Under the pieces are notes generated by a model. The model saw only the letters and a program-made list of their open reading frames with translations. It did no database searches and was not told the origin of the DNA. From positions 3,596,001-3,660,000 of the forward strand of contig OV121090.1 in the NCBI GenBank assembly GCA_921293015.1: a stretch of DNA of 64,000 nucleotides. The letters run 5' to 3'. Below, in pieces: positions 4,247-64,000 of the stretch (positions within the stretch are counted from its first letter, which is position 1; each line of letters opens with the position of its first letter). Made by a program: the position numbers and the translations under genes. The DNA comes from Phorcus lineatus. Its lineage: Eukaryota > Mollusca > Gastropoda > Trochida > Trochidae.

Positions 4247-4279
<33 letters not shown>

Positions 4280-4302
4280 TACTACTACTACTACTACGAC
4301 TA

Positions 4303-4359
<57 letters not shown>

Positions 4360-4750
4360 ATACTACTACTTCTACTTATACTACTACTTCTATTACTACT
4401 ACTCCTTCGTCTACTACTACTAATACTACTACTACTACTACTTCTACTACTACACTAATGCTAATACTAGTACTACTTCTAATACTACTACTAATACTAC
4501 TTATATTACTAATACTAATACTATCTTAAATCGTCTGCAATTGTTTATGTTATTTCTGCCATCATGTTACAACTTTCACTGTAATTGCTACTACTACAAT
4601 TACTACTACTACTACCACAAACTACAACAACTACTACTACTATAATTACTACTACTACTATAATTACTACTACTACTACAAGTAATACAAATAATACTAA
4701 TACCAATACTACAACTGCTGCTACTGCTACTAATTTTGCTACTACTACAG

Positions 4751-4796
<46 letters not shown>

Positions 4797-4811
4797 AGCT
4801 ATTGCTTCTAC
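4171..4811. repeat. Imperfect TAC/CTA trinucleotide microsatellite block
   Basis: About 600 bases dominated by (CTA)n with scattered CTG, TTC and AAT variants, in two arms (about 4171-4521 and 4587-4811) split by a short unique stretch around 4525-4585. It produces long spurious Thr, Tyr, Ser or Leu-rich frames on both strands. A similar array lies at 33064-33254. Confidence 0.95.
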
Positions 4812-6261
4812 AACTTGTAATTTTACAAACCCCCAACCCCTTCTATACCTATATCTACTAATACTTATTTGACCAGCATTAAAATTTATGAAATTGCATA
4901 TTTATTGTCCTACATGTTTCAACTTAATAGACGTCTAATACACAATTCTTAACACACCACTATTTCTCTTCCAATGCAACATACTGTCTATAATTTATTT
5001 ATGGTACAGTCATAAAACACATATAAAACCCTATCAAAATAAGGTCGGTTCGTCTTTCACTTCACGGAAATGGATAGGATTAGCTATTTCATTTGGAGAA
5101 TAAATAAATAAAATGACGTAATCTTAACAACCAGGTCTCCGCTGAAGGCATAAGACCGGATATTACGTCATAGACTAATTGAGGGATGCTTTGAAAATTA
5201 TGTGCGTAAAAAGAGTAAGACGATTCATGTTGTAATCATATGTATATATATTTGTACTTTAATTCTCTGGGGACATTGTATTGAACCTGAGAGAACTAAG
5301 TTACCTCGAAGATATCATTTATTTGTAATATAAATAAGCACGACTAACATCGCGCTCTCAAACACGAGGTATAAACAATATATTGTTTAACATTAATCAA
5401 TTTTAATGATAAGTAGTATCATAACTATGTTCATTTCATTGTCTAAATAAGTTAACAAGTGTAAATAGTCTGTAAGCCAGACTCTTAAGTAAGATAAAAC
5501 CTTAGGAAGGTCTAAAGGAAGACTTGAGAGTTGGTACATGAATAAATACTGTTTTAACCATATATACATATATGGCAAGTTAGTAAATTCAAAATTTAAA
5601 TGTAAATATAAAACCACTTGGCTATTGATTTGAGCTTATAATTGTAGGAGTATGTTAAACGTATTTATACACATCTTTTTTTATTTTTTTTAGGGACGAG
5701 CATTTATATAGGCAGTTATATCCTGTTTGATGGTGCCTTTTTCTTTGTATTTATTCTAATTTATTGTTTAATACATGTTGTTTTTCTCAAAATAACATAC
5801 CGTAAAATATTAACGTTTAACTTGAATAAACCTTTTCATACTTGGTAAAATATTTCGTTTGAAAAAGACACATTTATCACGAGCTCTGCTACAGTTCATA
5901 AAGTGCATTGAAGAAAAGCTACCGAGGCGCCAAGATAGTTTGAAAACAGGGAAAGTCTAGAAATTTCATGTTTGTAACAAGCACTTATTCGTTTTTCTAA
6001 TTGATGTTGATGGATTACATTAGTTTAATTGACAAAAAGAAATGTCATAAAAACAAAACGTCAGGTAGTCGAGTTCACTGTATCCATAAAGTGTCAAAAA
6101 TGTTTTTAACAAACACACCAAATGACCATATATAATATTTGAATTATGAGGTATGATTTATAATTTTCAGTTTCCAAAGTCTAAGATCCTTTTATCCATG
6201 ACTTTTAGAGGAGGTTTCAAACAAATGTATTGCTTGAGTGGCATTCTGGAAGTTGCAAGAA
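4812..6261. other. Intergenic AT-rich stretch
   Basis: No gene is seen. The only structured element is a short inverted pair at 5113-5122 (ATGACGTAAT) and 5162-5171 (ATTACGTCAT), each containing a CRE-like half palindrome, with a nested GGTCT...AGACC pair. It could form a small hairpin or be a fragment of a short mobile element. Confidence 0.5.
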
Positions 6262-16025: not shown

Positions 16026-16935
16026 CTAGACTTGATGAGGGCTTCTTTACATACAATTGTGATCAGCGCTCGAAGCAAGATTTCCTAACGGATAAATCGT
16101 TTTTGATCAGCCTGTCAAGTTAGACTTGATTAAAACTTTCTTATAGGGAAATCGATTGTGAAAAGCCTTATGAATTAGACTTGATTCAAGCTTCTTTATA
16201 GATAAATCGTTTGTGAACAGCCTTATGAATTAGACTTGATTCAAGCTTCTTTATAGATAAATCGTTTGTGAACAGCCTTATGAATTAGACTTGATTCAAG
16301 CTTCTTTATAGATAAATCGTTTGTGAACAGCCTTATGAATTAGACTTGTTTCAAACTTCTTTATAGATAAATCGTTTGTGAACAGCCTTATGAATTAGAC
16401 TTGATTCAAGCTTCTTTATAGATAAATCGTTTGTGAACAGCCTTATGAATTAGACTTGATTCAAGCTTCTTTATAGATAAATCGTTTGTGAACAGCCTTA
16501 TGAATTAGACTTGATTCAAGCTTCTTTATAGATAAATCGTTTGTGAACAGCCTTATGAATTAGACTTGATTCAAGCTTCTTTATAGATAAATCGTTTGTG
16601 AACAGCCTTATGAATTAGACTTGATTCAAGCTTCTTTATAGATAAATCGTTTGTGAACAGCCTTATGAATTAGACTTGATTCAAGCTTCCTTATAGATAA
16701 ATCGTTTGTGAACAGCCTTATGAATTAGACTTGTTTCAAACTTCTTTATAGATAAATCGTTTGTGAACAGCCTTATGAATTAGACTTGATTCAAGCTTCT
16801 TTATAGATAAATCGTTTGTGAACAGCCTTATGAATTAGACTTGATTCAAGCTTCATTATAGAAAAATTGTTAGTGATCAGCCTTTCAAATTAGATTGATT
16901 CAAGGGTCAGACTTGTATCAGGCTTTCCCTAGAAA
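16026..16935. repeat. 55-bp satellite array, about 15 recognisable copies
   Basis: Units beginning GATAAATCGTTTGTGAACAG start at 16201, 16256, 16311 and every 55 bases to 16806, nearly identical in sequence. Diverged copies lie at the edges (near 16026, 16091, 16146, 16861 and 16905). Most units carry a HindIII site within CTTGATTCAAGCTTC, and CTTGATTCAAG is a palindrome around a central T. Two units (16311 and 16696) share the variant ACTTGTTTCAAAC exactly 385 bases (7 units) apart, pointing to duplication of a multi-unit block. A homogenised core with decayed edges is the expected signature of unequal exchange. Confidence 0.95.
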
Positions 16936-20973: not shown

Positions 20974-21111
20974 AGCATTGATATCATAGATGTGTCAGCA
21001 TTGATATCATAGATGTGTCAGCATTGATATCATAGATGTGTCAGCATTGATATCATAGATGTGTTAGCATTGATATCATAGATGTGTCAGCATTGATATC
21101 ATATATGTGTC
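20974..21111. repeat. 23-bp minisatellite, six copies
   Basis: Copies start at 20974, 20997, 21020, 21043, 21066 and 21089. The unit begins AGCATTGATATCATAGATGT and contains an EcoRV site. Only two substitutions are seen across all copies, so the array is young. Confidence 0.97.
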
Positions 21112-24100
21112 ATGAAATAAGACTAATTTCCAGGGTTGATCTATTTCTAGGTCAGTTCTTCATCGCTTACTTTAGAGACGGATCTGGATAATGGGGGTCA
21201 TTTGGAATCTTTTTAAAAAACGATATAAATGGTGAAACCCAGGATGACCAGCCCCTTCCCCTCTTTTTCTCAATAGATAACTCTTCTTCTAGATTCTTAT
21301 AGTTTTACGTTTCTTGTATTTTCCTTCTATAAAACTCTTTCGGCAAAACACAATAATAAAACCAAATTTTTTTTAAAGCTATAATATGACATAGAAACGA
21401 TGTCCAGATTAGTTTTAGAAAAAAACCCAAAGTGATTGTAGATATTCTTTTTACGCTTGGGCGTTTTGAGTAATTTATTGCATGATTTGTTAAAAACGTT
21501 ACAACAGACTTTTAAGCAGTGTCGGGCGTTTGAGGGTGCCAACGGTGGAGTTGTACATGCCTTATGTAGGTGTTCACATTTGTTCCATAGGAAATCTCTT
21601 ACCTTTGAGTTTTACATCATGTTTTGATTTTGGCAACTTGGTAATGCATTTGGTGATTTATTTCAAATTCTTACCTCATATTCTTGCCATGATGGCGTTA
21701 AATATGACGTTATAAGCGATGAAATCTGACGGCAATGACGGTCGCTTAAACTGGTAATCAAACTGAGGGCATAATACCCACAGTTGAGGATTGTAAACAT
21801 ATCTCTAAATCATATTTCCTTAAAATCGATGGAAACTCATACGGCAAAATCCAATAAAAGCAATACATATTATGGAGTTAATGGGATATGCGGTAGTAAT
21901 GATAATTTTGTTCTTAAGGGAGACAAATGGTAATCTAAAATTATATGCATTTCAAAAAGCATCACATCATTTCACAGCTTTAGACAAAATGTAAGCCATA
22001 TAATAACCCTGTCGCCACCCGATATGAATGAATGGGTCGAGCGCGTGTCACAGAATTATACCTTAACGATCCGATTTCTCATTTCACGGTAAATTCCAGA
22101 GACAAAAATGACGGCCACAGTTCGAATACGATATTTATTTCATTTTTCATTGTTACTCACCTTTGAATTAAGACCATTAAAACCAGTTAGTTCTGAGTTA
22201 AAATTAATTTTGGTTTATTTGAACTTGAGATCGGGCGCGTCAATGATATGGGTTATCTGGAATAACATTATGATAACCCAAGAATGGCGTAGTGTTGAAA
22301 TGCAATCGGCGTAACGGCATCAAGCTATAGTGATATTTCATGTTAGAGATTAATGTTGTCGCGTTTTAACAGTAATCATTTTGTATTTAACCTTCTTGAC
22401 TTAATAACCGATGTTTGACTCCATGACGCTAATGACATTTTGATATAAAACTATACTGGTGCTATAGATGATATTTGCTAATGATATTGATTTGTATCGT
22501 TTTTGTTGTTTCCGAATGATTTGATTTCCTATGAATAATATTTCGGATTTCATGTTCAGATTTTATAAAATATAGATGTAGTTTTGTATAAATTCAAATA
22601 ATATGTCAATATGTCTGTATATGAAAAGAAATCATTATAACCTGTCTGTGAATTAGTTGAATAATCGGTCACCTACACCCTAGCAAAATTAAAATTGGAT
22701 AATTAGAAAGTGATTAAGTTTGTCATATAATCATTAATGCCAAGAATGATTTTAGCTTCCAATAAATGCTAAAAATATATACTTATTTATATATACTTTT
22801 TACATTTGAAACTAAATTACATTTCTATTTTTCGTATAAAGTGTCAAGTTGTTTTCAGGTAAAAGGTCATTTTGTTTAACATCGTCTCTTTGATTAAAAA
22901 TGAAAGGTGCAAATGAATAGGAGTAGCTTAAACGCGTGTACACACTAAATGTCTTGGGTGGTCGCCACAATATCATGTGAACCGCTACTTTAACCAACTG
23001 TCAGCCAATGGCACGAAATGTACTCTGCAAAGCTGCTTTTCACATAGCCGATAATTTAGCCATTTAGAAATCATTTAACAAAATAAACATTGGGAAACTG
23101 GCGAATATTTTCGAATTTCACAGGTGCGCGTTCACTGACCAACCAATATATACCTAAGGATGGTACATCCCTTTGGTTGAAGCGTTAAAATAAGGGGCAC
23201 TGTAACCATTTTATGAACGCAATTTCATCGGCAATCAGTCGCCATTGTTTGGGCGAAATCGCGGATGGGAGATACGAAATGTTTCTGACACACGATTTAA
23301 CGCCTAATGTGTGCGCACGCACCTCAACCGTGCCCCCATTAATGCATTTATTCGAGATTGCACGTGCGGAGCATACCTAGGCGTTCTTGATAGCGCAGGT
23401 GTTCGTTGGCTTTCTTAAGATTAACACGGGAAAATCTATCATGAAATGGTAAATTAGAGCGAGCGACAATGTGTTTGCATTCATAGGATGGGCGGACTTC
23501 ATTGTTGCTGCAGATAGTTTTTACTTCATTAAAAGCAGCAAGAGTGACCTGTTTACCAAAGTTTACAACGATATTGGTACTTACTTCCACTTCCATGTCG
23601 TAAGAAGTCTGTTATCATGTCACTGTAGTGTCATTGAAAAGGAAAAGGAAAAAAAAGTGTAGTGCTTTATTGTTAAAGGCACTATCGCACGCTTTTTCAG
23701 TTCAAATTGGCTATCTCAAGGCATGTGAGGACATAGGCACATTTTAGCTTTCTATCGATGCAATAAAATACAAATTATTCTTTACAATTGACCTCTTATC
23801 AACCATGAAGAAGTTAAGACAACCGAAGTAAGCTTAGACATACAAAAAATCTATGGTCAGCTGTGCACAAAATGGGGGAAATATGGACAGTTGAAAACTG
23901 CTGAACTAATTATTGAGGCAGCTTTTGAATTTACCTAAACCCTGAACTTTTATTAAAGGAAATTTATTTATTGAAACGAACCGATTTCAAAACATAACAT
24001 TAGCGTTGTTATCGGATTAACTATAGCTGCTGCCGTTTTCGCTTTTCTGTCTGTAGGCCAAATTCGAATAATTTCCATATCTTAGTTCATGTGGACTTAT

Positions 24101-46300: not shown

Positions 46301-47440
46301 CACCTGTGATGACAGCCTATTGATAGATGATAACGCCATGAAACATTTGTTACGTTAAATTTGACCAAAAAATATCTATCAAATTTAACGAAAATATGAA
46401 TATCTAAAATTTCATATTCATATTTTGTCGTTTGTTTATTAATATGAATAATAAACATTATGTTTATTATGAAAAGGCGGATACTTTATTGCAATAACTC
46501 ATATGATTTTCAATGCAGATTTTTTTTTCTAATTTGACATAAATGTATTAAAAGTAATGTTCATATGGCAATATGGTTTCAATGGTATGATTTTCTAAAC
46601 ATGATGTTCACAAACACTTACATGAACCATTTTTCCAATTTTAAATACTTGATTTTTAAAGAGATTTCATATAGAAATTAATTATTTCCGATATATGTAT
46701 AATCATAAATAATTATACATGTATAAGTATAGACATGTATATCTATATGTTTAAAAGTCTATTACCTTTTTGGCAAATACGTTTCTTTTATGTTATACAT
46801 ATCATACTGTTTTTTGAAAAACATACGAAAATAAAAAAAAATGTCTTCATATATTTGTTTATGATTATGCATTATGTTACTTCGTTTATTGTTATTGTAT
46901 TTTATCTAATAAACAAAACTTACTTATCACTTAATTTTTTATTTTCGTAAATCAAAACACGAACTTCAACTTAGTAATTTCAATGTTTGTTTTGATAACC
47001 TAAAATGATTTCAGTTATACCATATCATTTTGAAATACTTTCTTCTTCATATCTACCAAATATAAACAAATATACCTATGGTTACAGTTAATAAGCAAAG
47101 AACGTGGAGCGTCTTGAAATTGTTGCAAAAAATGTAATCATTCCTTTTTCTAATCCCCGATGCTATAAAGGACTTGATATGGGAAACCTCAGTGTAGAAA
47201 TGTGACACGATTTGACGTGGAAGCGGCGATTGTATTTCTTGATAAAATGACTGACAAAATTACAACATTTATAAGCGTGTTGACATTTCCTCTGCACAGT
47301 GCCCAAAGTCGTTTTAATGACGAAAGCTGACTTGATTTAAAACAACGCCGAGTAACTTGTCTCTCCCTCTCTGTGCATTCGCTAGTGGACACAGAACAAG
47401 ACGTCGCTGGCACCAGGAATAGTGTTCCCTATTCTTTCAC
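43381..47440. other. Intergenic AT-rich block
   Basis: No gene is seen. A G/C-rich patch at 44990-45100 holds two related segments (GGGGTTCCACCCCCTGG and GGGGATTCCACCCCCCTG). An 11-C run is near 45372-45382. Nested inverted repeats are at 46353-46389 (CGTTAAATTTGA and complement) and 46392-46436. The remainder is simple AT-rich sequence. Confidence 0.5.
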
Positions 47441-47563
47441 CTGACTCGGTAAAAGCTCCAAGTTCGATACGCAATAAAATCAAGGCGGTTGCGGCTCGAC
47501 TCGACGCGGTTTTCTCTGAGCGGCTGTATAAGTGCACCTGCATTACATTTGGAAACTTCGGAA

Positions 47564-47615
47564 ATGGACGGGTGGATTTCTAGAGACGCAACACCAAGTT
47601 CCAACTCCGATGCGG
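47564..47615 (+). CDS. Candidate alternative first coding exon of the sall-type gene
   Basis: ATG at 47564 opens 17 codons plus one base (MDGWISRDATPSSNSDA, then the first base of a Gly-type codon) and meets the donor G|GTAGGT at 47616. The donor phase (1) and the split G codon are the same as in the MSRRKQ exon 2.1 kb downstream, so both could splice to the same second exon. A TATA-like TATAAG lies at 47527, and the flank (about 47440-47620) is CpG-containing. Vertebrate SALL2 is known to have two such alternative first exons, one with and one without the NuRD motif. No transcript evidence is available, and a chance match of ATG, phase and donor is possible. Confidence 0.4.
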
Positions 47616-49490
47616 GTAGGTCCTGATTTGTTTAATTACGCATGACCGGTTAAGCCCACCCATTTGCCTTGAACCAACGATACTTCTGGCTTTGTAGAGA
47701 CTTGTAAAGGGTACGGATAGAGTTTAGCCTTTTACATGCTTGTGGTGTGTTGGGTGTTTGATTTGAATTGAAATGGACGCTCCGGAGCTATGTCAATTTT
47801 ATAAGCTACCTTCGCCGAGTGTCACGCGAAACCATGTAAATATTTACAAATCATGCTCCGACCAGATTGACTTATTTCATACCAGACCGCTTCCAGCTTC
47901 CATCACTTAAAACAAATTTGGTCTTTTTGGAAAATGAAAGAAAAATTTTCTTTTAATCATGCGAAAAGTGCTCAAACGAGAATTAGCTAAGCCCAGTGGT
48001 CCCCGGCTCGGCGCCCCACTAAGAAAATTGACATTAAATTTTGCAGTATTTGTTTTATCGGGACCTCTTAGTGTGGTTAAGATACCGAGCAGAGGGTCTA
48101 CAAATGCGACGTGCTCTCGACTTGCTATCCTAATCACTCTGTAAAATACCTCAATACGCGTTAAAGTCTAAAATATTATGGCAAAATATAGAAACATGTG
48201 ATTTGTCATGTTTTCGTCTCTTCATATCTCTACGAGCATACATGCATATGTAAATATGTTTTTTAAAAATTTCGTTTGATGTAGGTATCAAACAATAATG
48301 TAGATGTTATTTTTCTAACTAGCTATAGATAAATACATGTGTGTTGTCTAAACTCTTTCTAAACGAGGACGTGACATGAAAGTTAGGATCAATCGGTAAG
48401 AAAAAGTTTTTTAAAAACAATTTCTTCCTCAAATGGCCATTGCTTGTGTCAACACGAAGCAGGCTATCGGCGAGTAGGGATGCGACAAGGCGAAATGACA
48501 CTTCGCTCTTTCGCATGCCTAACTGCCGCCGATTGGCGAACTCATGCAAACTAACAGCAAGGCAAGCCCACTGAGTGTGTTTCACCTTGATACTCATAGC
48601 GGGAGGGAGGAGGGAGCGAAGAGAGGAACGAGTTAGGAGAAAAATCTTTACATCCATATATTTGTTTTGAGGACAGGGGTGATGTGACGGGGCTGTCTCG
48701 CTTGCAGTGGCTTGCTTTGCGATCGGACTGGAAACAAAAGCTCGCTAGCGATAGTGACAGAGCGAGCGAGTAAGAGAGCGACCCCCTAACCGTACAAACA
48801 GTCGGCAGTCAATCTTTTAATGACGCTTACATGTTCAGCAACCAACATTCGCCCGGCCTGCCTCAAGCGCTCCGTCTGCGAGAGTCTCCAGTTTTTCTTG
48901 TGAACAAACTCTCTCCAATTATCAAGCATGTACAAAGGGGATTATTACCATAAATAAAGCGTCTCAGTCGGGCACCGTGAATGGGCGATTTGCTGTGTAC
49001 GGAACCCATAAATTGTACTATAATTCTGGCGGATACATTCCTTGCAATTTGACAGGGGGATTCAGTTACAGACTTCTCCGCACACTGTGCCCCTCGCCTC
49101 AATCCGACTTCTGACTCACGGTGAGAGGATGGGATCTCCCGCAAGATGAAAACTTTCTTGGACACGCTTCTGAGTTGACCAGCTTGGACAACAGACTCGG
49201 ACGCTGCCCGGAGCAAGACTGGCGTTCTGAGAAGGGGCTGGGCCTCTGCCCCCCTGTTACGTAAGAGCAGACGATACCCTGCCGCCGGCCAGGACCCGTG
49301 AGCGGAGTAACAAAGCGAGCCCTTACCCATTGGCAGTTAGCCCAGGCGAGGACACACGTTTTCATAAGGACTGAACAGACAATATGTTTTTATTTGCACG
49401 TGAATACTTTATCACGGGAACAAACTGCTCCAAGTATTACATTTGCTTCGTCGCTGTCAAGTCAGACCCGTGGTGGGCTAGTAATTGAGC
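47616..49490. promoter_or_regulatory. CpG-containing upstream region of the sall-type promoter
   Basis: Compared with the desert, this stretch is richer in G and C and in CpG, lacks microsatellites and has many short frames on both strands (up to 155 codons at 49330-48863 minus) with no recognisable domains. That is the usual picture of a large upstream regulatory region of a developmental gene. If the 47564 exon is real, this is also its intron. Confidence 0.5.
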
Positions 49491-49494
49491 CGCG

Positions 49495-49509
49495 GATCAA
49501 AGCCAATCA
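49495..49509. promoter_or_regulatory. TCF/LEF site overlapping a CCAAT box
   Basis: GATCAAAG at 49495-49502 is the exact complement of the TCF/LEF consensus CTTTGATC. It overlaps GCCAATCA (49502-49509), a CCAAT box. Both lie about 100 bases upstream of the TATA box. A Wnt input is inferred from the motif only. Confidence 0.5.
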
Positions 49510-49601
49510 AAAGTCTTCTTACAATTTGATTATGATAATTACAGCGGGCATTATTTGATAGTTGATAATCATAATTTGAGCATGCGCATCGCGAGTCTGA
49601 C

Positions 49602-49640
49602 TATATAAACCGGAATATCACAACTGGGCAAGTTTTGTCA
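49602..49640 (+). promoter_or_regulatory. TATA-box core promoter of the sall-type gene
   Basis: TATATAAA at 49602-49609 lies 63-70 bases upstream of the MSRRKQ start codon. A start site about 30 bases downstream would fall near 49632-49640, where TTGTCACT offers an initiator-like sequence. There is no ATG between there and 49672. A GCATGCGCATC motif (NRF1-like) lies just upstream at 49579-49589. Confidence 0.7.
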
Positions 49641-49645
49641 CTGAG

Positions 49646-49662
49646 TGGACGGACGGACGGAC
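49646..49662 (+). repeat. (GGAC)n short repeat in the 5' leader
   Basis: Four GGAC-type tetramers (GGACGGACGGACGGAC) sit between the predicted start site and the ATG. It may form secondary structure in the leader and be length-variable. Confidence 0.8.
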
Positions 49663-49671
49663 TCGGGAAGA

Positions 49672-49744
49672 ATGTCCCGTCGCAAACAGTCCAACCCAAG
49701 GCACTTGGACGCCGAACTGGAGTTAGGATCCCTACTTGAAAATG
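49672..49744 (+). CDS. First coding exon of a spalt-like (SALL) transcription factor
   Basis: The exon encodes MSRRKQSNPRHL, then 12 acidic/leucine-rich residues ending LLEN, plus one base of a Gly-type codon. It ends at the consensus donor G|GTAAGT (49745). MSRRKQxxPxx is the N-terminal peptide of SALL, FOG (ZFPM) and BCL11 zinc-finger repressors that recruits NuRD through RBBP4. SALL1 has a 76-base first coding exon in phase 1 ending in a split Gly codon. The 73 bases, phase 1 and G here match that better than the shorter first exons I recall for FOG and BCL11, although residues 7-10 (SNPR) equal those of FOG-1. The ATG has A at -3 and no upstream ATG in the leader. The product would be a nuclear DNA-binding repressor. 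All zinc fingers must lie in exons beyond the window. The assignment to the NuRD-motif group is firm; to SALL in particular it is probable. Confidence 0.75.
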
Positions 49745-52504
49745 GTAAGTTGATTTTTTTCACAGAACATTGTGATGACATTGACACACGTTTATTCGGG
49801 TGCACGTGCAGCGCTCGGAGATAACTCGCTCTCAGCTGATCGCCAGTCAAGCTCACTTCAAATTCCCGCCATCTCCCTTCTGTCAAATTGTGTCGTCTGC
49901 TACCGCGGTATTTTTTCTCAGTCTATCTTGTCAAGTGGAAACCTTTTGGGACTTAGATTAGCTCGGCTTTGGCATGTGTTCGTCTACAAAACAACTGCAA
50001 AACAATTTTGTTACAATTATTTCGGTTGATATTTGACTCGAGATAGTGTAGCTTCACTTTACATAAACTTCTCCTTGTCACTTCGATTAATTTCAAACTT
50101 AGGTGAGTCTTCATTTTTTTAAAAACAAAATTATTTTTTATATCTGAGATTTTATTTCATCTTTAAAAAAAGTTTGTTTACATTTTTCAATTTTGATATA
50201 TTTTTATTTTAACGTTTTTACGTTATTGAAAAATCGACAGTTACTGATAAGGATTTATCGTCGCACGAACGGTCGGTTGTAACAGTTAAGTATTTTTGAA
50301 TTGATACGAGTACTTTTAGTTTAGTGTCAAGTTCGGGGGAGGAACTTATTCGGGGGGATGGAGAAGGGTTATGCATTTTTACAACACGAACGTGCGTAAT
50401 CATTCCCCACTCAATATCGTAATAAAGTTCGGGTTTGTTTTCAAAAATTTTTTTTGTAGCATATGAAATGAACAACTTGAAATAAAATACCTGACGTGCC
50501 AAATTTATGAGTGGACACTATACAAACAAATGTGTCATATTTCATTTGAGGCATAAATTTGGAGGCGAGTTTATTTAAAATTAGTGGCCTGTTTCATTGT
50601 GTCTCAACAAGGGAGATATATTACATATGTCTTTTCATAAGCTCAACAAATGGAATTTGTTTATTGCTGACAGTTGAATGGCCTTGTTAAATTTCATAAA
50701 GTTATTGAGACGGCAAGCGTTAATGTGATTCCATACGTTTCTCTTCTTATTATGAAGAAAATATTTTAGATTTACTAGATAATGTCCAATTGACATGTAG
50801 GCATTCCATCGGCTTAGTTTCACATTGTCGTTCTTTTGAGATGATTTTAAAGCAATTACCAAATATCCATTCACAGGGAAGCGAAAAACAATTTGTAGAT
50901 AGGCTTCGAGAGAAAAGAAAACTGCAATCAACACAATAGCTATTCAAAATCACACGCCGGAACGAAGAAGTTCTGAAAACAAGTCGAAATTCTTTTCAAT
51001 AGGTCTATTGTCTTTGAAAGTCACTCTTTTCATTTCTTGTGCAAACACACATTAAGACGGCAATTGCAATTGTTACAGAAAAGATCCATCCCAGCGTTTT
51101 CTGCACGTAAACGAAAGGGATGTAGGGATTTTTGCCGCTAGGCTTATGGCTACAAACATTTTTGAGAGGATATAAAACGTGCCTCAGAGAGAAACATGCT
51201 AAACTGTAATGCCATCGACTTATGATATTTCACAAATCAAACAACGGCTAATATAAATCATAAGCATACAGCTACCATTATCAGAAACTCATTGAAAAAC
51301 TCAACTGGCGTAGTCAAAGCAATCGCGACGTTGATGCGATAAGCATACCTATTACAATAGAAGACCCGACGCAGCCGGTTTTGTCGGCGATCGCAGTTCG
51401 CTGCTAAATGATACGATTATTTGTAACTTTCTTGATAATTCCTGTCTTTAGGTTTAAGATATCTACAACCTTCCAAGGTGTTGCAAAGACTCTGTTTTCT
51501 TAGAAACAATCTCGTTTTGTTGTTAAGGAACATTTTAGCTGATTTATGGTACGTTTTAAATGAGGTGTAAGCATAAATAATGTCTTCCCTTTTAGTGAGA
51601 GATAAAGGACTTTGTTTATTTGTATATGACATTTGATGATAAGAAAATAATGTTGAAATTTCATTTCAAATGTTTTGAAATTTTTGACAACATGTAAAAT
51701 TGTTTTACAAAATAAATGTAGTTTTAATTATATTTATAAAGTATATCACAGTTGTATAATTTTAAATTCAAACTTTATTTCAAGGCATTCTATTATACAA
51801 ACTATGTTTTGATAAAATCATAAACCAAATGTTTTTTTATCATATCAATATAGTTAATACATACTGATAAAAAATCTTGTTGTGGAAAATAAAATATCCT
51901 TTGTAAATCATTTTCAATAATATAAATTTTACATTTAAAAAATAACCTTAAATAAGTTGTCATTAGTAGACAATGCCAAGACTATTGTATGAATATATAT
52001 TAAAAAGTACAAATGAACTAATATATCAAAATGTATACATGCCAAGGAAAATCAGACCCCATATGGTAAAGTTTTTAATATATTGAATTATTTTCTGCAA
52101 GAAGAGCCTTCTCTGTAGGGATTTATCTTCCTTTGAGGTCCAAATGTTTTTCTCTTTATGTTTTTATCTTTCTGGAAAATCCATCTCATGATAAAGTAAT
52201 AATTTTTCGAGCTGATTTTGATACCATGGCAGTTATGGTTGACTTGTTTTTCTGATATGTAAAATTGTTCTTGAAACCTCCTCAAAATATCTTTTCACAC
52301 AAATTTAAAAAAATGGATTAATAATCCAGGTATGCTTCAGATAGAATTAGGTAATCATTTAAAACTTGGCTCATTTCAATAAAACTCTCTGTTCCAATTA
52401 ATGATTTTCTAAAACAATATGCAGGTTCATTAAGGAGAAATTAATAACGAGTTTTGACAACCCTTTCATGTTTTGTTTGAATAAATATTATCAACAATAA
52501 CGTA

Positions 52505-52781
52505 TTAATTATTAATATTGATTTCATTAGTTAATTGACATGTCTTGTTCAATATTTTTTTGGGGTAAAATGTAATATTAATTATTAAATTACAGCCTTA
52601 TATCTTGCTCAGTGCTCCAATAATTAAAGTAATTTATTTGAGTCGTTATTTAGCTTGTGACTGAGATGGAATATTTTTTATGTTTATTCATTAATTAAAC
52701 CCTGTTATTGTTTTCTTCATTATAAATTCAAACTAAAAGTGAGAACAGCATGCTTGGGTTTCAACTGAAATTAATTATTAA
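52505..52781. promoter_or_regulatory. Homeodomain-type site cluster, TTAATTATTAA x3
   Basis: The exact 11-mer TTAATTATTAA occurs at 52505-52515, 52578-52588 and 52771-52781, with further TTAATTAA and TAATTA cores between (for example 52691). The region is AT-rich, but three exact copies of one 11-mer within 277 bases are far more than base composition predicts. Homeodomain binding is inferred. Confidence 0.45.
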
Positions 52782-54784
52782 AAGGAAATGTCTTTACCTT
52801 CTTGCACCTGTTTTATAAAACGCTATACAGTCCCATATTGCTAACCTTTTTCTATTAAAAATCATTGAATGAAAATAAGAAATGTTACAAAATTGCTGTT
52901 ATTGATATGTAAAAGTTTTTAAAATCCTTATAGCACTTAGGAACTTTTAGGGACTGCTATTTTCAACATTCATAAATAAACTATTAAAATTAAGATTATG
53001 TTTAAAAATCATAAGCGAGATAAAAGTCAAGATTTTGTCTTAAAATCATGAGATAAAAATAGAGGGTCTGTTTAAGAATTATAAGGTTAATGAAAATATA
53101 TATAATATCAGATAATCTATTATATAAAAAGTAAGTAATTGATGGATCACAAAAGAAAATGTTTCAAAATCTAGCTTTTCATTGAATATTATATTGTATT
53201 CAAAGTAAATGTAACAATTTCTAACATGAATTAATAAAAGTAAACATTTAAGAATTCTCATAAATAAAACATTTCAATTAAGAAATTGTAAGGTAGAAAA
53301 GTGAAGTTGAAGATGTGTGGAAAGAGAGGAAGGAATTTGAAGTTCTTGTCATAGAGGGATAGAAAGACTAAGATAGGGATGATACGGAGTGATAGATGGA
53401 GAAAAGGAGAGAGCTCTCACACGATTCTGGTAACAGCTGGCATGAAATAAGGAAATTTGAAAAATTCTGACACTAACTATTTGTAGAGAAGTGACATTGT
53501 CAGATGTATATTTACAGTGTTGATGGTATGGGGGAAATTATGAGGGAAAATATGAAAAAGGCCAGCGACCCTAAATTTATTTATGAATTATCTTATTTGC
53601 TAGACATCTTACATTCGGATTTACTTACTCGTTTATTTCAACAAGTTTTCAATTTATAATATCTATTTTAAAAAATTCAATTCACCTTATTAAGTGTCAC
53701 CCTTAATATTTTCACATTGTTTTATATCTTCTAAGCATTAAGATATCAAGTCTTTTGAAACATCTTTATATAACATTGTCTAATTATTCCATTTCTGGTT
53801 TTAAAATGTTATTTTCTAAATAATATATTGATTTTAAAATAAATGATATATGTGTAAAAATATGTCATTATGTAAGAGTAAAAATCTATGGCATTACATT
53901 TATGCAAAAATATGTCAATCAAAAATATTTTAGCATCTTTGTTAAGACTGTTAAGACTTACCATGTTAAAATTTATCATTTTGCATTGTTTTTGTTGATT
54001 TCATTGAGCATAATTATGTTAAGATGTGATCCAAAGGGATATATTTTTAGGCTTGAAGAGAGAATTATAGGTAATTGTTTTCCTCTATAGTAGACAGTAC
54101 TACGTCCAGACTTCCTTTCGATAGCTTCGTACTAACTCGAGCCAGGCAAAAGAAAGTTAATCTTTAACCCACAATCAGGAAATGACGCTTTTAATATATA
54201 AAAGGTAAATTTTAAAGTAGGTCAGAAACACTCCAACAACCTCCCACATTTAAGGAAGTATTATAGATATTTGGATTTATTATCGTTTTTAATTTGTGAA
54301 ACATAGAATCGTGACAACGAGAAACATGATTTTATGGTCACTAAAATTGTTGTATGAATTATTTGGTAAAAATAATTTATAATTTAGAAGCTTTTTGATT
54401 TATTGATATTTACCTGAAACTTGAAGTAATACCTGATAGAAATTCAATTGTGATATTTTGTGAGAAAAAATTTCACCTTTGTTTTATAAATTCTATGTCT
54501 AATACAGGAATATTGTAAAGTCAATATGATTTAAATCTTATGATATTGGTTATCAAAAGCAATCAAAATTGAATAATCATGCAATTTTCTCTTATTTTAG
54601 GGTATGAAAAGTTTATCAAATGATTTAAATCTTTCAGATAAGTCATGTTTTGTTTGTTGATAATTTGTATCTAGCTATACTGTTGTGACACTAATACTTA
54701 AGCAGGGTCACCTTAATGGAGTTAAACTGTCATATTAAGAGAATCCCTTGTGTAGAAATCCTGAAGTTCCCTTGACGAGGTTAT

Positions 54785-55468
54785 CACCTGTTAGATATGT
54801 ACTGTTTGCCACCACTTTTACACCTGTAGTTGGGATACCTTGGACCCTATCGTGAGATACCAAGGGTGTACCTCAGGCTTACAGGGGTACCCTGGGGTTG
54901 AGGGAGGGTATCATGTTCAACTCTGTCAATAGATCGGTGATTGCTTTGTTTGCAGTCACCTGGTATTAATTACCTTAATTAGTACAGTAACGAGCCCTGG
55001 ATTGGATACTTTGTTTCAAGGTGATAGGCTGTTGATGCAAGTGGTAGCGATTAGCCGATTGATCCATTGATTACCTGGGGTAGCCGACAGGGAGATGGAC
55101 AAACACCACTCAGGAACACACAGCCAGGTGTCACTCACCTGCTCGCTCGGGTGGAACGAGGAGTTGTTCAGGTGTGACTAGGCTGGGGGATCCCCCACCC
55201 ACAGACTTGCTTATTTGAAATGAAGAGGGAATCATTGAGCATACTCACCTGTGTAAACTGTGATCGTACAACAGTTTCCAACTCTCACTGACTATCTCAC
55301 CTGTAACGAGGGTTTAGGGACTCGTTCCATTCTTACCTGTGTCAGGTTTGAGTGAAGTGTCCCCCACCCACTGACTTACCTGTTCAAGGAGGGAGGGGCA
55401 GACAAGGAGGGGATCATTGCATGTTTACCTGTATCCACTTGTTGATTGAGCAATGGATACTACAGGTG
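54785..55468. promoter_or_regulatory. CACCTG E-box cluster in a diverged tandem duplication
   Basis: CACCTG or its complement occurs nine times, at 54785, 54821, 54957, 55125, 55136, 55169, 55246, 55298 and 55463. About 0.3 would be expected by chance in 684 bases. Several TACCTG variants add to it. Part of the cluster arose by duplication: CCCCCACCCAC recurs at 55192 and 55361, and CTCACCTG at 55134 and 55296 (offsets 162-169). CACCTG is the core bound by Snail, Scratch and ZEB zinc fingers and some bHLH dimers. The TATTAATTACCTTAATTAG homeodomain-type patch at 54964-54982 lies inside. Likely an enhancer or silencer; function not shown. Confidence 0.55.
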
Positions 55469-55998
55469 CAAAAGGCATGATTACAGGTATGTTTTAGCAA
55501 CAAATGATATTGGAAAGTTTGTTTGATAGTTGATGATTTTCCAGATGGTTGTTTTCTGCTTATAATAATTAAAAAAAAATATATATAGAGTACAGTAAAT
55601 AATTACTTGATTTTTTGGTTGGTTTTTCAAATGCTCAGACTCATATTTTAATTTTATTTTCTTAGATTTTTCCCTCTGCTTGTATTTTCATGAAACAAAA
55701 TTAAGTATCTGGACCAGCCTGCTTTTCTCTATTTTGAATAACTAGTTGTGCGAGTGTGTTCAACAGGACACAAGTATTTGATTAATTTACAATTTATGGC
55801 AGGATATATCTGGTATGCGTGTCATGTAACTTTTTTTCTTATTTTCGGCAACTTCAAATAAATATTCATTTGAAAAGCAAGTGTATCTTTTGAAGTCGAA
55901 CTCTTCAAAGCTGTGATAAATGTAACCAGGTTGATTTTCAAACAGAACCTATGAGTGTTTATATTGTGGGTGTTCTCCCTTGTTTAATTTACATATAG

Positions 55999-56193
55999 AA
56001 ATCGGCCCGCTGTAGACGCGCAATCACCGATCTGAAAAAGTCGACAGATCAATACAAGAGTGGAAATGTTGCGACAGAGAAGGATAGATTCCTGTGTTGT
56101 CAAATCCCAGTAGATGGCGCTTGTCTGCCCGCTCAAGTGAAAGTCGAGATTTCAACGCTGCTCTTCTCGCCCGACGTCAATAACCCATCATAG
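55999..56193 (+). other. Exon-like open frame with acceptor, unassigned
   Basis: After a pyrimidine-rich stretch and CATATAG (acceptor at 55997-55998), a frame stays open for 64 codons (KSARCRRAITDLKKSTDQYK and on, ending NNPS) and stops at TAG 56191. Base composition is markedly richer in G and C than the AT-rich flanks. There is no ATG start, so it would have to be an internal or last exon. It is not in phase with the 49744 donor: joined directly, that frame stops after five codons. The frame contains a CTCF-type motif, so conservation for DNA binding is an alternative explanation. I recognise no homologue. Confidence 0.2.
56107..56120 (+). promoter_or_regulatory. CTCF-type core site
   Basis: CCAGTAGATGGCGC matches every position of the CTCF core consensus CCASYAGRKGGCRS. 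CTCF is present in bilaterians including protostomes. The site could mark an insulator or loop anchor in the first intron of the gene. Confidence 0.5.
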
Positions 56194-57779
56194 AGAGACA
56201 GCATGCGATGAATACACCTATCTTACACACCTCCTATCTAATTCCCTACCTATTTCTTGCAAATTGCTTTCAATATTACCCACTTGTCCCGAGTTTGATT
56301 CCATACTTGAGCATTCGTCGGTTAAAATCTTGAACAAATATATCACTGTCGTGACCATTAAATCAAAATTTGTTATTTTGAGGCGAGGGCTTTGCTAGGA
56401 TTTAATGATATTAACAAAGTTTGGGGACGTATGTTGATTTAGGTGAATATTTCTCCACCTGTATACGAGCTTTATATCCGTTTTATTAGGTTTTACCTGG
56501 TTGCTATGTCACTGACGAGGTAGAAACGAGATTGAAGCAGACATTAATGACGAGATATGATATATGAAATTAATAATATGGCTCTATCAGACCACCTGTA
56601 CGCTAAGTGTTGGAGATTACTGAGTTATTGATGTATATGTATATTAGATTTACTTATATACTAAGTAAATGTTGCCATGCTCAAATGAAATACATCACTT
56701 AATGAATAAATCAAAATTCTTTAGTGATTTTATAGATTTATGAAAATATAAAAATATTAAAAGCTTCAAATAAATTATTATTTTTATTTACCTTTGTAAG
56801 CTTTTTAAAAGTAGATATGTACAAACAGTTTCTTACTTTTTAAAACAGCATATTTACCTTGTTAATAACCTACATTTATGCTAATATTTGTGTAAATCTA
56901 GTTATACAAAGAATTTACATTAGTTTATGGTTTCTGAATTACAAAGCCATTTCACAAAAGCATTAGTAAATAAATATTTGATCAGAAGTATTAATAATGT
57001 GAGTTTGCACACAAGCATGTATTCACCGGATTATGGGAAGTTTGCCATTCTTTGAGCTATGTTCTCACTGTGTCCCTGCTATAGTTATTCATATGAAGCT
57101 GTAACTAATATTTGTTTTCCATACCTGACAATAGAATCTCCTCAACTGTTCGTCAAATTATACAGCGGACAATGTCCAGGTGTATATTACTCAATTTGTG
57201 AGCGGGTAAGCAAATATAACATGTATGTGGAATAAGCCATGCATATGCATTTACTAATTCAACCTCAACACAAACACAAGCATATAAAGTTATTCACCGA
57301 GTGCTTTAGTTCAACCAAAGGTTTGTGAAATGGAGGGTCTCGTCTCTCACTAGATATTGAATTTCTCCAGTAGGAAAAAAACCCTGAGGCACATCAAATT
57401 TAATATTATGTAAGATTTTCTAAACTGGAGAGATGTTTGGGGCGTGAATCCCATACACTAACAATTTAAGCTTGCTTTAATGTCTACCCATTATCTAGGT
57501 ATAAAACCCTCATTTCATATTTGTCTGCGATTTGTATAGTTTTATGGGCAAATGGTACACCCCTATTGTTATGCCTTAAGAAATCCATTTTCTTTGACTG
57601 GGGGGACAATTGTTACCCCCCATGAAGTGGTCAGACAAATATGTAGCCATGGAACAGATTACAATTGAGCTTACATAACACTCGGGCCCATTGTCATTTC
57701 ACAATTCCATAGCAGGGGAATTTCACTGTACACTGTAATTTAATAAATATATCTAACCAAGCATCAAGTTTCAATAAGA

Positions 57780-57910
57780 ATTTGATAGCCCTAGGCAGGG
57801 TGAGTGACCACTGGTCAGTGGTCAGGTGCTACAAGGTGTGGAGGTGGGCATTGTTAGGAGGATGGACCCGTCACTTTTTAGGGAGTTTCAAATCTCGGAC
57901 AGGACGGAAT
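57780..57910. promoter_or_regulatory. Low-repeat block with GTGGTCA palindrome
   Basis: TGACCACTG-GT-CAGTGGTCA, a perfect inverted repeat with a two-base spacer, lies at 57805-57824, directly followed by CAGGTG. The surrounding 130 bases are GC-balanced and non-repetitive. A binding site for a dimeric factor is plausible but unassigned. Confidence 0.35.
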
Positions 57911-58559
57911 GTTAGTATACTTGTATGACAGTTTCATCAAATATGTTAATATGTCTTATCAATTTCATATTTTGTATTTTTTATATTCTATTTCTTAGAT
58001 ATTTTTTTAGATGATATTTTAAAATTAATTACAAATTTCACATTTAGTAACATGCATTGGAAACTAATATCATTTCTACTCTGAACTTGTCATTTTGGTC
58101 TTTCACGATATGATTTTACTTTTTAACGTCTTTCAGTTTTGTATGGTATCGAATATTTCTTAGAATTTATAGTTTTGATTTCTGTCTTTTATACATTTAT
58201 GTATCTTTGAGATATATTTATAATTATATCTTTTCAAATAAATACATTTAGCTATTAATTTACTATTGAAATATCCCAAAACTTAATTTCTAGTCACCAG
58301 AGTGAGCACTTTTCAATACTGCTTATGAAATGGCTTTTAACGTTCGATTATATCTAGGATTATTGTAAGGATTTTGTTGAATTTTAAAATGTTCTTTTCT
58401 GCTTGCATTTGAAAAATTAATGTGGCATTTAGGTGAAATAGGATTTTTATCCTTTGACAATACCGGCAAGATAAGAAACAAAATATTTTCATAATGATTG
58501 GGAAGATTTGCTTGAAACAGGGTAATCTAGAAAGGCTTCAAGCAAATTTGAATAAATGG

Positions 58560-59400
58560 ATTGGTCCTTTTGTAGTGAGAGGGGAAAAAGCCTGTTTACT
58601 GCCCGCTGATTAATATGACATAATGTTCTCAAACCGTACAAATCCAGGTCTGGGTTTTACAAGTGACAGCCATATTGATTAGAAATAATCTTTTTTGATG
58701 CTATCTCTCCGAAACACCAGAATCAATGTTTTAAATTGAAGAATTTAATGAGAAATTATAACCAGATTTCCCAATTTACCTTTTTCCCTGTATTGTTGAT
58801 AGGGAAATTCCTGGAGGGGAAAAAACGGCCAATAGAGGCAATACCGCTGGTTTCCTTGGTTGTTAAAATTAGATGGATATTTGAAATACAGAGGCACAGA
58901 GGGTGTGTGGTCTATCTCCCGTCCGATCAAACACGCACATTTTCAATTTGAGAAGCTGGCGAGAAATTTGATAGATTGTATACACTAAATATAAATATTG
59001 TTTTCTGTCTGCCTCTTGCCGATTGAAAAAAAGATCTTTTCTTTCCTTCATCTCCGTCTTGAAAGAAATTAGTTCCAGTAAGCGCGGAAAATTGCTTTAG
59101 TTAAAGTAATTTAAACAACAGAGCAGAGCGAGAGACAAATTATCAAACATATATAGCCCTGTTGCTGTGTAATTTGAAGAAGAAAAAACTCAGCCTCTGG
59201 TATTGGCTTCAATATATTGAGGTTACTATCAGCTGTTTGGCTCTTTTAAAATGTCAGAAAAGCGAGGAATTGCAGCTTATTTCCATGATGAAATATCACA
59301 CTGGTCCAAATATATCTTGTCAGGTCCTTTCCAATTACAATCCGATTGCAAATATTTATCAGAATTACAATACCTCCGGTTTTGTGGGCGGGATTGTGTA
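58560..59400. promoter_or_regulatory. Low-repeat intronic block, possible enhancer
   Basis: GC-balanced, non-repetitive sequence in an AT-rich intron. The 3' part includes ATTGCAAATAT (octamer-like, near 59347), two AATTACAAT boxes (59333 and 59363) and a GTGGGCGGG GC box (59385). Several short frames on both strands are probably incidental. Confidence 0.3.
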
Positions 59401-59409
59401 GTGAGGGTG

Positions 59410-60115
59410 AGGCTAAAATGAAATCTTCCCCCCCTCCCCCCTCTCTCCCAATCCTTTCGCCCTCCCCAAGTTAGATGCGTGGAGGATGCTTGATGATATT
59501 TGGAGAACACCAACATTGTCTAGGAATGGATGAGAAAAACAGGAAATATTTCGGAATCTTTTACTTTGACATCAATTTGAAAATTTAAACAATTAACTTA
59601 AACTTCTCCTAGTAAGGTCAGTCAAAGTTTTTTTCTGTTATGAATTATATTTATTAAATACATTCTTTAGAAAGTGAATTTTGTTAGCAATAAGAACTTG
59701 TAAATGTGAAAATAATGTGGTTGATAGCAGCTGACATCCTTAAGAAAATGCATAAATCTTTAAAGCAAAGAAGAGGAAATTGTGTCTCTAGTTGTAAAGA
59801 TGTCCAGCCTCTGGATATTCTCAACAGCCAATTTATCAGTTGAAGTATATCCAAACCAAACTCAGCAATGCCTTCTGAGGTAAACAAGGTAAATAGAGAA
59901 CTTTTCCCTTTCACCCCTGCCACTTACGCAAACTCTTCTGTTAGTTTTCTCTCCCCCTTACTTTTCTCTCTCCTATCCTCATTTCACTTTCCCCATTTTG
60001 GTTCCACCATTTTCCTCACCAAAAACCGACCTATCTTCTTTTCCCTTCCCCCTCTATGCCCCCTCCCCTCCCCCTCCCCATTACTTTCTCTCCTATGCCC
60101 CTCCCTCCCAGGATA
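59410..60115. other. Pyrimidine-rich tracts ending in a strong splice-acceptor-like site
   Basis: C/T-rich plus-strand patches lie at 59428-59470 and 59900-60110. The second ends CTCCCTCCCAG|GATATTGG, an excellent-looking acceptor at 60110-60111. The next 92 bases, up to a weak donor CAG|GTTGAG at 60204, are open in phase 0 (DIGTLHSRGEKILCLPEGYR and on) and also in the phase required by the 49744 donor, though that frame stops at 60195. It may be a cryptic exon or merely a pyrimidine tract. Confidence 0.25.
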
Positions 60116-62089
60116 TTGGAACTCTTCACAGCAGAGGAGAGAAAATTCTCTGCCTCCCAGAAGGTTATCGGGAGGAGATCGGAAACAAATTTCATGAAGA
60201 CAGGTTGAGTGGAATGTCAACTTTACATCATTGCCAATTCCCGTTTCCTCCCCCTCATCTGTTGGAGGCAGGGCGGTGAAAGGGGGAAGGGGGGGGGGAA
60301 GAGTTTCGTCTCCCTGGATAGGCTCCTGTCACTATTACATGTGTATTAGGTTAACCTCTCACCCCACATCTAACCAGCCAAATCTGCCTGCCAATTTGAA
60401 GATCTTTGGTCAGGGGTTACGTAAAAGAGTCAATTTTCTGTACTCCATATTACATGGATGGGATGATATGGGCAGATATGAATCTATGGGAAGTGTTTCA
60501 CCCTCCTCCGCTAATCGCCTTTTGAGATCTTAATTATTTATCAGATGCAGATGTGAGGTGCATGTAAGAAATATGCCTTGGGAAAATGTATATGCGCAGG
60601 TGATCGTTACGACCTTTCATAGCCGAGATGAAATGTTGCAAAACATTATTATTGTTTACATCTTCATGATGGCTTAATATTTTTTTTTTTCAAGGAGTTA
60701 TAAGATAGAAAATAAACACTTAGACGCTAAAAGGAACTTTGATATTTGTTTTATTTACTGAGAATTATAAATGAAAATAAGCACTTTGCAGACAAAAATC
60801 GTTGCTGTGAGGGAAAATGGAAAATGTTTTCTGTAAACATGCATGGTCCTTATGAAAGGGTGTTAATTTTTTCCGTTATGTGTTCAATCATGTTTCACAA
60901 AGCGATTTCTTTGTGGGCTGGTGGTCTCTTGGAATCGGCTGTGCTGGTCCCAGACTTTCATCTCAGACAATGGATCCACAGAACAAGATTTTCCCAACAT
61001 GCTGTAAGCTGTCAAAATGCAAACATGCTAGCATAAATTGGCATTCCATGATTTGTTTACATTTCAGACTATTGTGTCAGTTGGACGGTGTCTGGTATAG
61101 GGACAGCCTCCATGATAAAAGCGACAATAGAATTGAGGAGTGTATATTTCACCATGTATTGACAGCGTAACCGGTCTATATGACAGGCTCATGTTGTTTA
61201 AAGCGTCAGAGGCATGCCTCGTCATTTAGTTAAGGGATAACTAGATATGATTATCATATCATAATTGATTAAAAGGGAATCAGGTTTTCCAATACAAACA
61301 CTTGCTTTGTATGGGCGTGCTTTGGGTCATATCCATCGTGGGCTCGAGAGGGGGGGAAGTGTTCATTTTAATCTCTTCTGTCAATATGTTTTGTGGAGGG
61401 GGGTTAGAGGGAAATTGAACCAGGTTGAAGGTATTATTTGCAAAATGTCAAACATAATTACTTTTTTTCACCAAATATTTGTTGATTATTTAATTTTGAT
61501 TAAAACCTTTATGAATAATATGAAAGATATCGATTAGCCTGGCTGTGATATTTGTTATGATTAAGAATATCTGTTAAGTAAGAATCTTTAAATAGATGAA
61601 CCTTAATTCATTTAAAGTTAATTTAAAAAAAATCAAACTTATGTTTATTCAGCCAAGGTTAAAACCTGAATAAGACACTTATACATGTTTTTCAGAATTA
61701 AGTTGGGATGAAAGGGGTATTTAAATAAAAAGAACTATTTAAACCAAATTTTGTTTTCAAATGTAATTCATGAGCAGTTTATAAAATGCATACATATATC
61801 GACAGATTAAATATGGACTTTCCCAAGCCCAATGATTGAAATATTGCAAACGTGGCGCTAAACAGTAACTAACTCACTGATATGAACTTACGAACAGAAG
61901 CCTGTGTTAAGATAAAAAAATTCTGAGCAGGGGGGTTGGGGTGTAGATTTTGGGGACCTGGAATTTCTGGGGGGTTAAGTCATGCTGAACCCCTTATAAA
62001 GGAGCTTGTCCCCTCAGTATGAAGGGTGGATAGAGTTGCGGTGGATTTACCCCAAAATAGGGTGGTGTGACAAATCTGAAACTGTGTGC

Positions 62090-62800
62090 CTCTCTGCCGA
62101 GTGTGTCAGCCCGGGACAGACAATAGCTCCACGCAGATTCATATTTCATGAGCTGTCTCATTGTTGAAAGGAATTTTGTTGAATCAGACGCCTATTAATA
62201 TGAGTAGAAGTGAGAGCCGAAGAGAGGTATTCATAAATGTAAATAGATATGATACCGCGGCCAAGAGGGTCTGAATATCCCCCCAAGTCAACACCTAAAC
62301 ATCTCCAATTGCAGACGGAACTTTTATTGCCTACCTTCAAGGCCCCTTTCAGTCCCTTCATTCAATGTGTGTGTTCCAATGAATTTAAATAATATGAAAA
62401 TAATATGAAATTTTCCATCTGCGGTGTTATGGGAGGGAAAGGCAATAAACGGTTCTGGGTTATCATTGCTTCGGTGTTTAAACAAGCGTTTCGGCAACAC
62501 ACGGGGGGTGGCTGTTTTTATGTCCATATCGCGATTTGCAGCTTTTGAAGTTGTAATACTTTCTGTCAATTTTGAAAAAGTACTTGTCTGACAATAAGCC
62601 ATATTCCTTGCTTCTAAAACACAGCAGATTTCTTCATGCGGATAAAGATATTTGCTGCGAGCCGTTGCTGATCGACAGATGTGCTGAATTAGCGTGCGAC
62701 ATCGTGGGTCACCTTAGGGCATAGGCTAAATGCTTCTCTATCTGCGATGAAAAAGCTTCTTGAGGAAAATCACAGGTTAATTTAATCAAGCAGTATCTTT
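62090..62800. promoter_or_regulatory. Low-repeat intronic block, possible enhancer
   Basis: About 700 bases of GC-balanced, complex sequence between AT-rich stretches, with several AT-rich homeodomain-type cores (CAATAAA, TTTATTG, TATTAATATG). It resembles the conserved non-coding elements common around developmental regulators. This is a judgement from composition alone. Confidence 0.3.
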
Positions 62801-64000
62801 AGGTGACAATTATTGCAGAAAACAAACTCAATTAATGGATTTGAATAAAGAATGTGACCTCCGGAGACACAGCCCAATGATGAAACTAGTTTTAAATTAA
62901 TATAATTGAAACAGTTTTAAGAGATTGCCTCAAATATTAGCTTGATGACTTTGATGAAATATTTTCTAATTATTTTCCTGACTACAAAAGAAATCTTTTT
63001 ATTCGACATCGTGAGATAAAATTTTTGTCAACTTATCGTGTTATTATTCCATAATGACGTAATCTGCGTTAAATTAAATTTCAAACACCATGTGTTCAGT
63101 TATTTATGACTCCAATGACAACTAATTAAAAATTAATTTTAAAGATTAAAATTAATTTTTAAAATCAATTCAAATTTGTTTAGCTAAAAGATATATACCC
63201 TTTGTACCATGCTTTACATCCAACTTCAATTTGAATTTCTGATATCCAATTAAATATATGGAAACATACCAGCAAAAGAAAAACTCCTTTAAAATTTATT
63301 TTGATAAATATGTGTTAATTAAAAACTTTTGAAATTTTAACCTGAAGTCAAAAAACAAACTTTGGAGCAAAGAAAGATCAAACTAACACGATATTTCATA
63401 CATAGTTGAAAGCAGGCTTCTGTGATATGAACGGTCAAAGGCCTAACGAGCCCAGCTGCGAGACCCTCTGATCTGGAACATGCTTACACTTTAATTATGA
63501 ATTCAACATCTGATCAATTAAACTGCCAGCATGCTTCCGACCCATGTTTATAAGGGGATAAATAATTGAAGGCGATGTCTGATAAACTAGGGTGTCAGGT
63601 GATGGTGATTGCAGATGCAAAGATATTAGATTTTGATTGTTGGAATAACTCTTTGGATATTATTTTCTTCAAGTTTGCAAAGGTATTGAATTACGTTGAT
63701 TACAAAAATTCTTTGTATGCATTATCATCAATAAGGGTGGAATTTTAAGAATATCAATGATGATGATGATGATGATGAAGATGATGTTGAAGCTAATGAT
63801 TTTGAACCATAATGTTGTTTTTTATGATTCAAACAATAAATATTAAAAATTTGGATGATTGAAATATATTCAATGCTCATTGACTGCAAGTTTAGAATTT
63901 TGATAAATAGGATAAAGCAAATTTCCAAAATATTTGTAGTTTAAATTCTTCGAACAAATAATGGTTGGAGCAGTGCTATTCTTCAGTGACAATCCAGTGT
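62801..64000. other. AT-rich intronic sequence
   Basis: No exon is seen. A dense run of ATTAATTTT and its complements lies at 63119-63172, and a short ATG/TGA microsatellite at 63757-63787. The frame at 63566-63748 has no recognisable features. Confidence 0.5.

Follow-up and report, generated by a model that had tools for sequence, protein, structure and literature searches.

A candidate first coding exon without the NuRD peptide upstream of an MSRRKQ exon in the gastropod Phorcus lineatus

The stretch of DNA analysed here, hereafter the window, comprises 64,000 nt of contig OV121090.1 (positions 3,596,001 to 3,660,000 of the forward strand) from the gastropod Phorcus lineatus. The following features mark a first coding exon with a FOG-repression/NuRD peptide:

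49672..49744, + strand: first coding exon with the FOG-repression/NuRD peptide (73 nt; MSRRKQSNPRHLDAELELGSLLEN plus a G; phase 1)
49745..49750, + strand: splice donor GTAAGT of the MSRRKQ exon
49602..49609, + strand: TATATAAA, 70 nt ahead of the MSRRKQ ATG and possibly the TATA box of that exon
48300..49967, no strand assigned: GC-rich run that takes in the MSRRKQ exon and the presumed promoter

The MSRRKQ exon consists of 24 codons and one G, followed by GTAAGT. Its MSRRKQSNP at 49672 fits MSRRKQXXP at the extreme N-terminus, as in FOG-repression-motif regulators, MSRRKQXXP being the consensus given in the available text of PMC8079813. No other stretch of the window matched the motif patterns sought in its six frames. 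A pattern search with MSRRKQSNP returned no match in genome_contigs or viral_contigs (collections not intended for animal genomes), and a PDB search with the 25-residue peptide returned none up to E 10. Octamers like TATATAAA occur eight times on the + strand of the window. Within the 100 nt before the MSRRKQ ATG no good acceptor was found (pyrimidine fraction at most 0.5), and with so poor an acceptor a transcript from upstream is expected, although not with certainty, to skip this exon; two better acceptor-like tracts (0.7 and 0.65) lie about 210 nt before the ATG, at 49460-49465.

The first-pass annotation had described, upstream of this exon, another short ATG exon ending at GTAGGT in the same phase and with the same split G codon, and the letters bear this description out. 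The features of this upstream region are:

47564..47615, + strand: candidate alternative first coding exon (52 nt; MDGWISRDATPSSNSDA plus a G; phase 1), known from its letters
47616..47621, + strand: candidate splice donor GTAGGT, preceded by CGG
47320..47563, + strand: ATG-free stretch and possible 5' leader, the previous ATG being 247 nt upstream of the candidate ATG
47360..47385, + strand: acceptor-like pyrimidine tract ending TCGCTAG (pyrimidine fraction 0.8)
47527..47532, + strand: TATAAG, 37 nt before the candidate ATG (a second TATAAG lies at 47270)
47180..47906, no strand assigned: GC-rich run enclosing the candidate exon and distinct from that over the MSRRKQ exon

The candidate comprises 17 codons and one G followed by GTAGGT, shares its strand with the MSRRKQ exon and starts 2108 nt from it (ATG to ATG). 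Both exons reach their donor in phase 1 after a lone G, and the candidate, judged by its letters, is without the NuRD motif. Its start context shows a purine at -3 with G at +4, and a stop at 47450-47452 closes its frame on the upstream side. No repeat covers it, the 46.5-50.5 kb region holding seven two-copy direct families and 14 inverted pairs, and the candidate-start pattern had no match in viral_contigs, a collection not intended for animal genomes. GC-rich runs were built from 500-nt stretches whose GC reached 0.46 or more, a cut equal to the candidate's own value and thus post hoc; by this definition the candidate's run is one of seven in 64 kb.

Chance may have brought together an ATG, a short open reading frame and a GTAGGT that resembles a donor, all in a GC-rich block upstream of the MSRRKQ gene, the block acting, if at all, as an enhancer or as promoter-proximal DNA; we regard this as a substantial possibility, if on the doubtful side. 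ATGs and stops are less frequent in GC-rich DNA. The frequency of comparable structures, counted as an ATG with an open frame and a phase-1 donor with final G (the two exons themselves left out), speaks for this reading. At a donor cut of 5.5, just below the candidate's score of 5.52, the window contains four other such donors on the + strand and two on the - strand. Of all 2108-nt stretches taken by sliding, 12% (+) and 7% (-) include another candidate; for stretches of 5 kb the shares are 25% (+) and 17% (-). At a cut of 3 these values were 19% (+) and 28% (-) for 2108 nt and 38% (+) and 49% (-) for 5 kb, and at the laxest cut 43% (+) and 63% (-) of 5-kb stretches contained a phase-1 candidate. 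When the local 3.17 kb (46501-49671) was dinucleotide-shuffled 100 times, 7% of the shuffles contained such a candidate, 5% one with one good start-context base, and 1% one with both (purine at -3, G at +4). Donors are usually preceded by G (frequency about 0.8), so a final G common to both exons says little. Taken by themselves, phase, final G and donor show no excess over chance and are weak evidence.

Scored with a splice-donor matrix against the window background, the candidate donor ranked 26th and the MSRRKQ donor 25th of 3458 GT sites, and against a uniform background they ranked 46th and eighth. With the uniform background the candidate donor is thus clearly weaker than the MSRRKQ donor, and the candidate is lost at cuts 4 and 5; with the window background, no other ATG/donor pair in phase 1 with a final G occurs in the 5 kb upstream at any of the cuts applied, which ran from 2 to 5.52.

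The chance reading is opposed by a composite first-exon score, the log-odds of donor, start context and ATG-free leader, whose features were picked after the candidate had been seen and which is accordingly post hoc. The candidate headed the 113 phase-1 candidates of both strands (12.66, with the runner-up at 7.13); under three assumed leader lengths it also came first among 330 ATG/donor pairs (both strands, all phases) and first among 650 once reversed and complemented controls had been added. When the 5 kb upstream was block-shuffled 400 times with local composition kept, no shuffle attained the full score, and the part contributed by donor and start context was attained in 3.3%. When the leader term was dropped, the candidate ranked fourth of 113. 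The MSRRKQ exon itself ranked only ninth of 113 and 18th to 23rd of 330, which argues that the score separates real exons poorly.

Of the ATG gaps in the window, 12 of 1381 (+ strand) and 15 of 1310 (- strand) are as long as the one before the candidate. Within the same 2.7 kb there are other long gaps, of 238 nt between ATGs and 292 nt between CATs, as the chance reading would have it. The + strand of the window has 100 matches to TATAAR, and the TATAAG near the candidate is therefore a weak signal; the copy at 47527 is moreover too near the ATG to explain the long ATG-free leader.

This leader could also belong to a real 5' exon of a different sort: an internal exon, either non-coding or start-bearing, of a longer upstream transcript, part of a long non-coding RNA, or a leader-only exon joining before the MSRRKQ ATG. 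An acceptor-like site at 47384-47385, with a pyrimidine fraction (0.8) reached at 18 of 1430 [CT]AG sites of the window, would make 47386-47615 a start-bearing internal exon of 230 nt, with no ATG between 47386 and the candidate ATG at 47564; the stop closing the candidate frame upstream and the acceptor-like tracts about 210 nt before the MSRRKQ ATG point the same way. Were an upstream exon joined at the latter tracts (49460-49465), the candidate start would precede the MSRRKQ start in one RNA. Splicing of the candidate straight onto the MSRRKQ coding frame was considered and rejected, as the acceptors in the 100 nt concerned do not exceed 0.5 and the frame has a stop, TGA, at 49642. Against an exon of another kind, no second gene was recognised among the open reading frames (ORFs) of at least 90 aa that were scanned, the 37 frames submitted to Pfam giving no match better than E 0.056 (35 of the 51 such ORFs plus the two exon frames, leaving out five over the N run and 11 of simple repeats), and no upstream exon was identified. 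On balance we consider this reading unlikely.

Base composition changes downstream of the MSRRKQ exon:

51400..64000, no strand assigned: CpG-depleted stretch (observed/expected 0.50 vs 0.96 upstream)

The CpG drop begins 1.7 kb past the MSRRKQ exon, its best change point being 51400 with a log-likelihood ratio of 41.4; the highest value among 1000 block permutations, scanned at coarser steps, was 21.7. Past the same exon the + strand has an excess of G over C (z 4.1) and of T over A (z 3.1), whereas at 20-40 and 40-47 kb the G excess is absent (z 0.5 and -0.2) and the T excess slight (z 1.7 and 1.9). Larger skews occur elsewhere in the window (G over C of 0.39 in 1-2000 and -0.30 in 4001-6000), so that a skew by itself does not prove transcription. 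The genomes of invertebrates are mosaic, and methylation in oyster rises past the transcription start, according to the available portion of PMC4378273. The combined CpG and skew pattern looks like that of a transcribed, germline-methylated body that starts at the MSRRKQ exon, with methylation deduced from the CpG depletion, and 51400-64000 is presumed to lie in the first intron of the MSRRKQ gene.

That these signatures begin only past the MSRRKQ exon again favours chance as the origin of the candidate. Between 47.6 and 49.6 kb neither CpG depletion nor G over C skew was seen, 2 kb being too short to exclude a skew, and this signal-free interval is a mild argument against an upstream start being heavily used in the germline. 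The candidate's promoter would remain CpG-rich in any case, which softens the CpG argument. Possible marks of such a promoter are the candidate's own GC-rich run and the two TATAAG copies at 47270 and 47527, with the skew and CpG signal absent.

The gene to which the MSRRKQ exon belongs had been labelled SALL at first pass. The label is plausible, the exon encoding 24 residues where SALL2 E1 has 25, and it stays unproven, because MSRRKQxxP is common to FOG, BCL11 and ZNF423/521. SALL/spalt proteins are characterised, in the accessible text of PMC5892016, by an N-terminal C2HC finger and paired C2H2 fingers with the Sal-box FTTKGNLK. Neither the C2HC finger nor the Sal-box was recognised within the 64-kb window, which may end before the second exon, and C2H2, KGNLK and HTG[EQ][KR]P patterns had no match in its six frames. 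The same six-frame scan returned two C2HC-like strings, at 55816 (+) and 57221 (-), and three short VC..C-like strings. The C2HC-like string at 55816, the most SALL-like, was tried as exon 2 and rejected: its open frame of 35 codons (55786-55890) is in the wrong phase and offers a poor GT and a single AG, whose pyrimidine fraction is 0.55. Both C2HC-like strings were judged to be due to chance, and we infer that exon 2 lies beyond 64000 or is present unrecognised within the window.

Returning to the candidate, we give close to an even chance to the reading that 47564-47615 is a used alternative first coding exon of the MSRRKQ gene with its own upstream promoter. This weight, like those given above to chance and to an exon of another kind, is a matter of judgement and was not computed. 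Letters, matching phase, motif, score and composition were read directly from the DNA; promoter, splicing, shared exon, zinc fingers and function of the candidate are what we infer. Transcripts from the upstream promoter would be spliced from 47615 directly to a second exon that is presumably common to the MSRRKQ form, bypassing the MSRRKQ exon because no convincing acceptor lies close to it. The resulting protein would begin with MDGWISRDATPSSNSDA in place of MSRRKQSNPRHLDAELELGSLLEN, probably keeping the zinc fingers while being without the FOG-repression peptide, through which RbAp46/48 and MTA of NuRD are contacted. In this way the choice of promoter would toggle the factor between NuRD-recruiting and NuRD-free forms.

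The vertebrate SALL2 alternatives E1 and E1A, to which the candidate had been likened, are indeed described in the part of PMC7937961 available: human SALL2 uses alternative promoters, and the E1A form, without MSRRKQ, predominates across cell types. In the geometry of strand, phase, strong start context and separate GC-rich run the present locus fits an E1/E1A-like arrangement, whereas phase, G and donor alone stand at chance level. As in SALL2, there would be two short first exons, one of them with MSRRKQ, those of SALL2 joining one long common exon; the N-termini have 25 and 23 residues in SALL2 and 24 and 17 plus the split codon here. The SALL2 promoters are 11 kb apart, vs 2.1 kb between the two exons here, and SALL2 transcripts are known whereas the present arrangement is read from genomic letters (SALL2 details from the same portion of PMC7937961).

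Whether invertebrate SALL genes switch in this manner had been left in doubt at first pass; a switch of this kind has already been reported for Drosophila u-shaped (ush), and none was found for an invertebrate SALL gene. In the available sections of PMC7891773, ush, a FOG gene, produces N-termini with or without the motif through alternative promoters and splicing, and of Ush-B and Ush-A/D only Ush-B binds dNuRD. The likeness lies in an invertebrate gene with alternative short N-termini, with or without the FOG-repression motif, as proposed for the candidate; in contrast to the candidate, ush belongs to the FOG family and has been tested biochemically, and the isoform-specific parts given there are seven (Ush-A) and 14 (Ush-B) residues long. 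Human ZNF423 has alpha and beta promoters, with a 12-residue NuRD sequence in the beta form only (PMC5968090, available text). This matches the proposal made here in having two alternative promoters and the peptide in one form, and differs in that ZNF423 is a vertebrate gene of the ZNF423/521 family with a different set of zinc fingers. Mouse Bcl11a-XS likewise is without the NuRD-interacting domain of the other forms; unlike the candidate it arises by alternative splicing, is short (191 aa) and is also without the C2HC finger, according to the excerpted PMC7158892.

We count the SALL2, ZNF423 and Drosophila ush designs, along with the start context, the ATG-free leader, the separate GC-rich run and the composite score, as support for 47564-47615 being a used alternative first coding exon. 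These described cases cover vertebrates and insects and three families. Translational isoforms of FOG1 are also said to have been the topic of an earlier paper. In the literature searched, no invertebrate SALL gene was described as having an alternative first exon, which is no proof of absence; the nearest sources, in the sections available, were PMC5892016 and PMC7891773. The wider claim, that in an invertebrate SALL gene the NuRD peptide is removed through an alternative promoter and first exon, and that such switching has repeatedly arisen or is ancient in SALL, FOG/ush and ZNF423, is put forward tentatively and is less likely than not. If real, the candidate would be a further case of a known design and not a new principle; if used, it would add one more gene in which promoter choice sets the NuRD recruitment of a zinc-finger factor. 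A further case, if true, would raise the question of whether a small exon of its own has been retained for the N-terminal peptide because this makes the peptide separable.

The remainder of the window was surveyed for other elements. Rfam gave no match at the gathering threshold and no tRNAs were found; a scan for bacterial promoters and terminators stayed near the shuffle level, such models not being meaningful for an animal gene. Two further first-exon-like structures lie in the presumed first intron of the MSRRKQ gene. At 59251-59406 is the second-best first-exon-like score of the window (10.62, phase 0, 378 nt after the previous ATG), and 55453-55486 is a G-ending phase-1 ATG candidate with the donor GTATGT after CAG, which has another ATG 32 nt upstream and is probably due to chance. 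Elsewhere, 200 N (an assembly gap or mask) occupy 2829-3028, and two tandem repeats were noted, one of 55 nt at 16091-16904 (14.8 copies, 95% matches) and one of 23 nt at 20974-21112 (6 copies, 97% matches).
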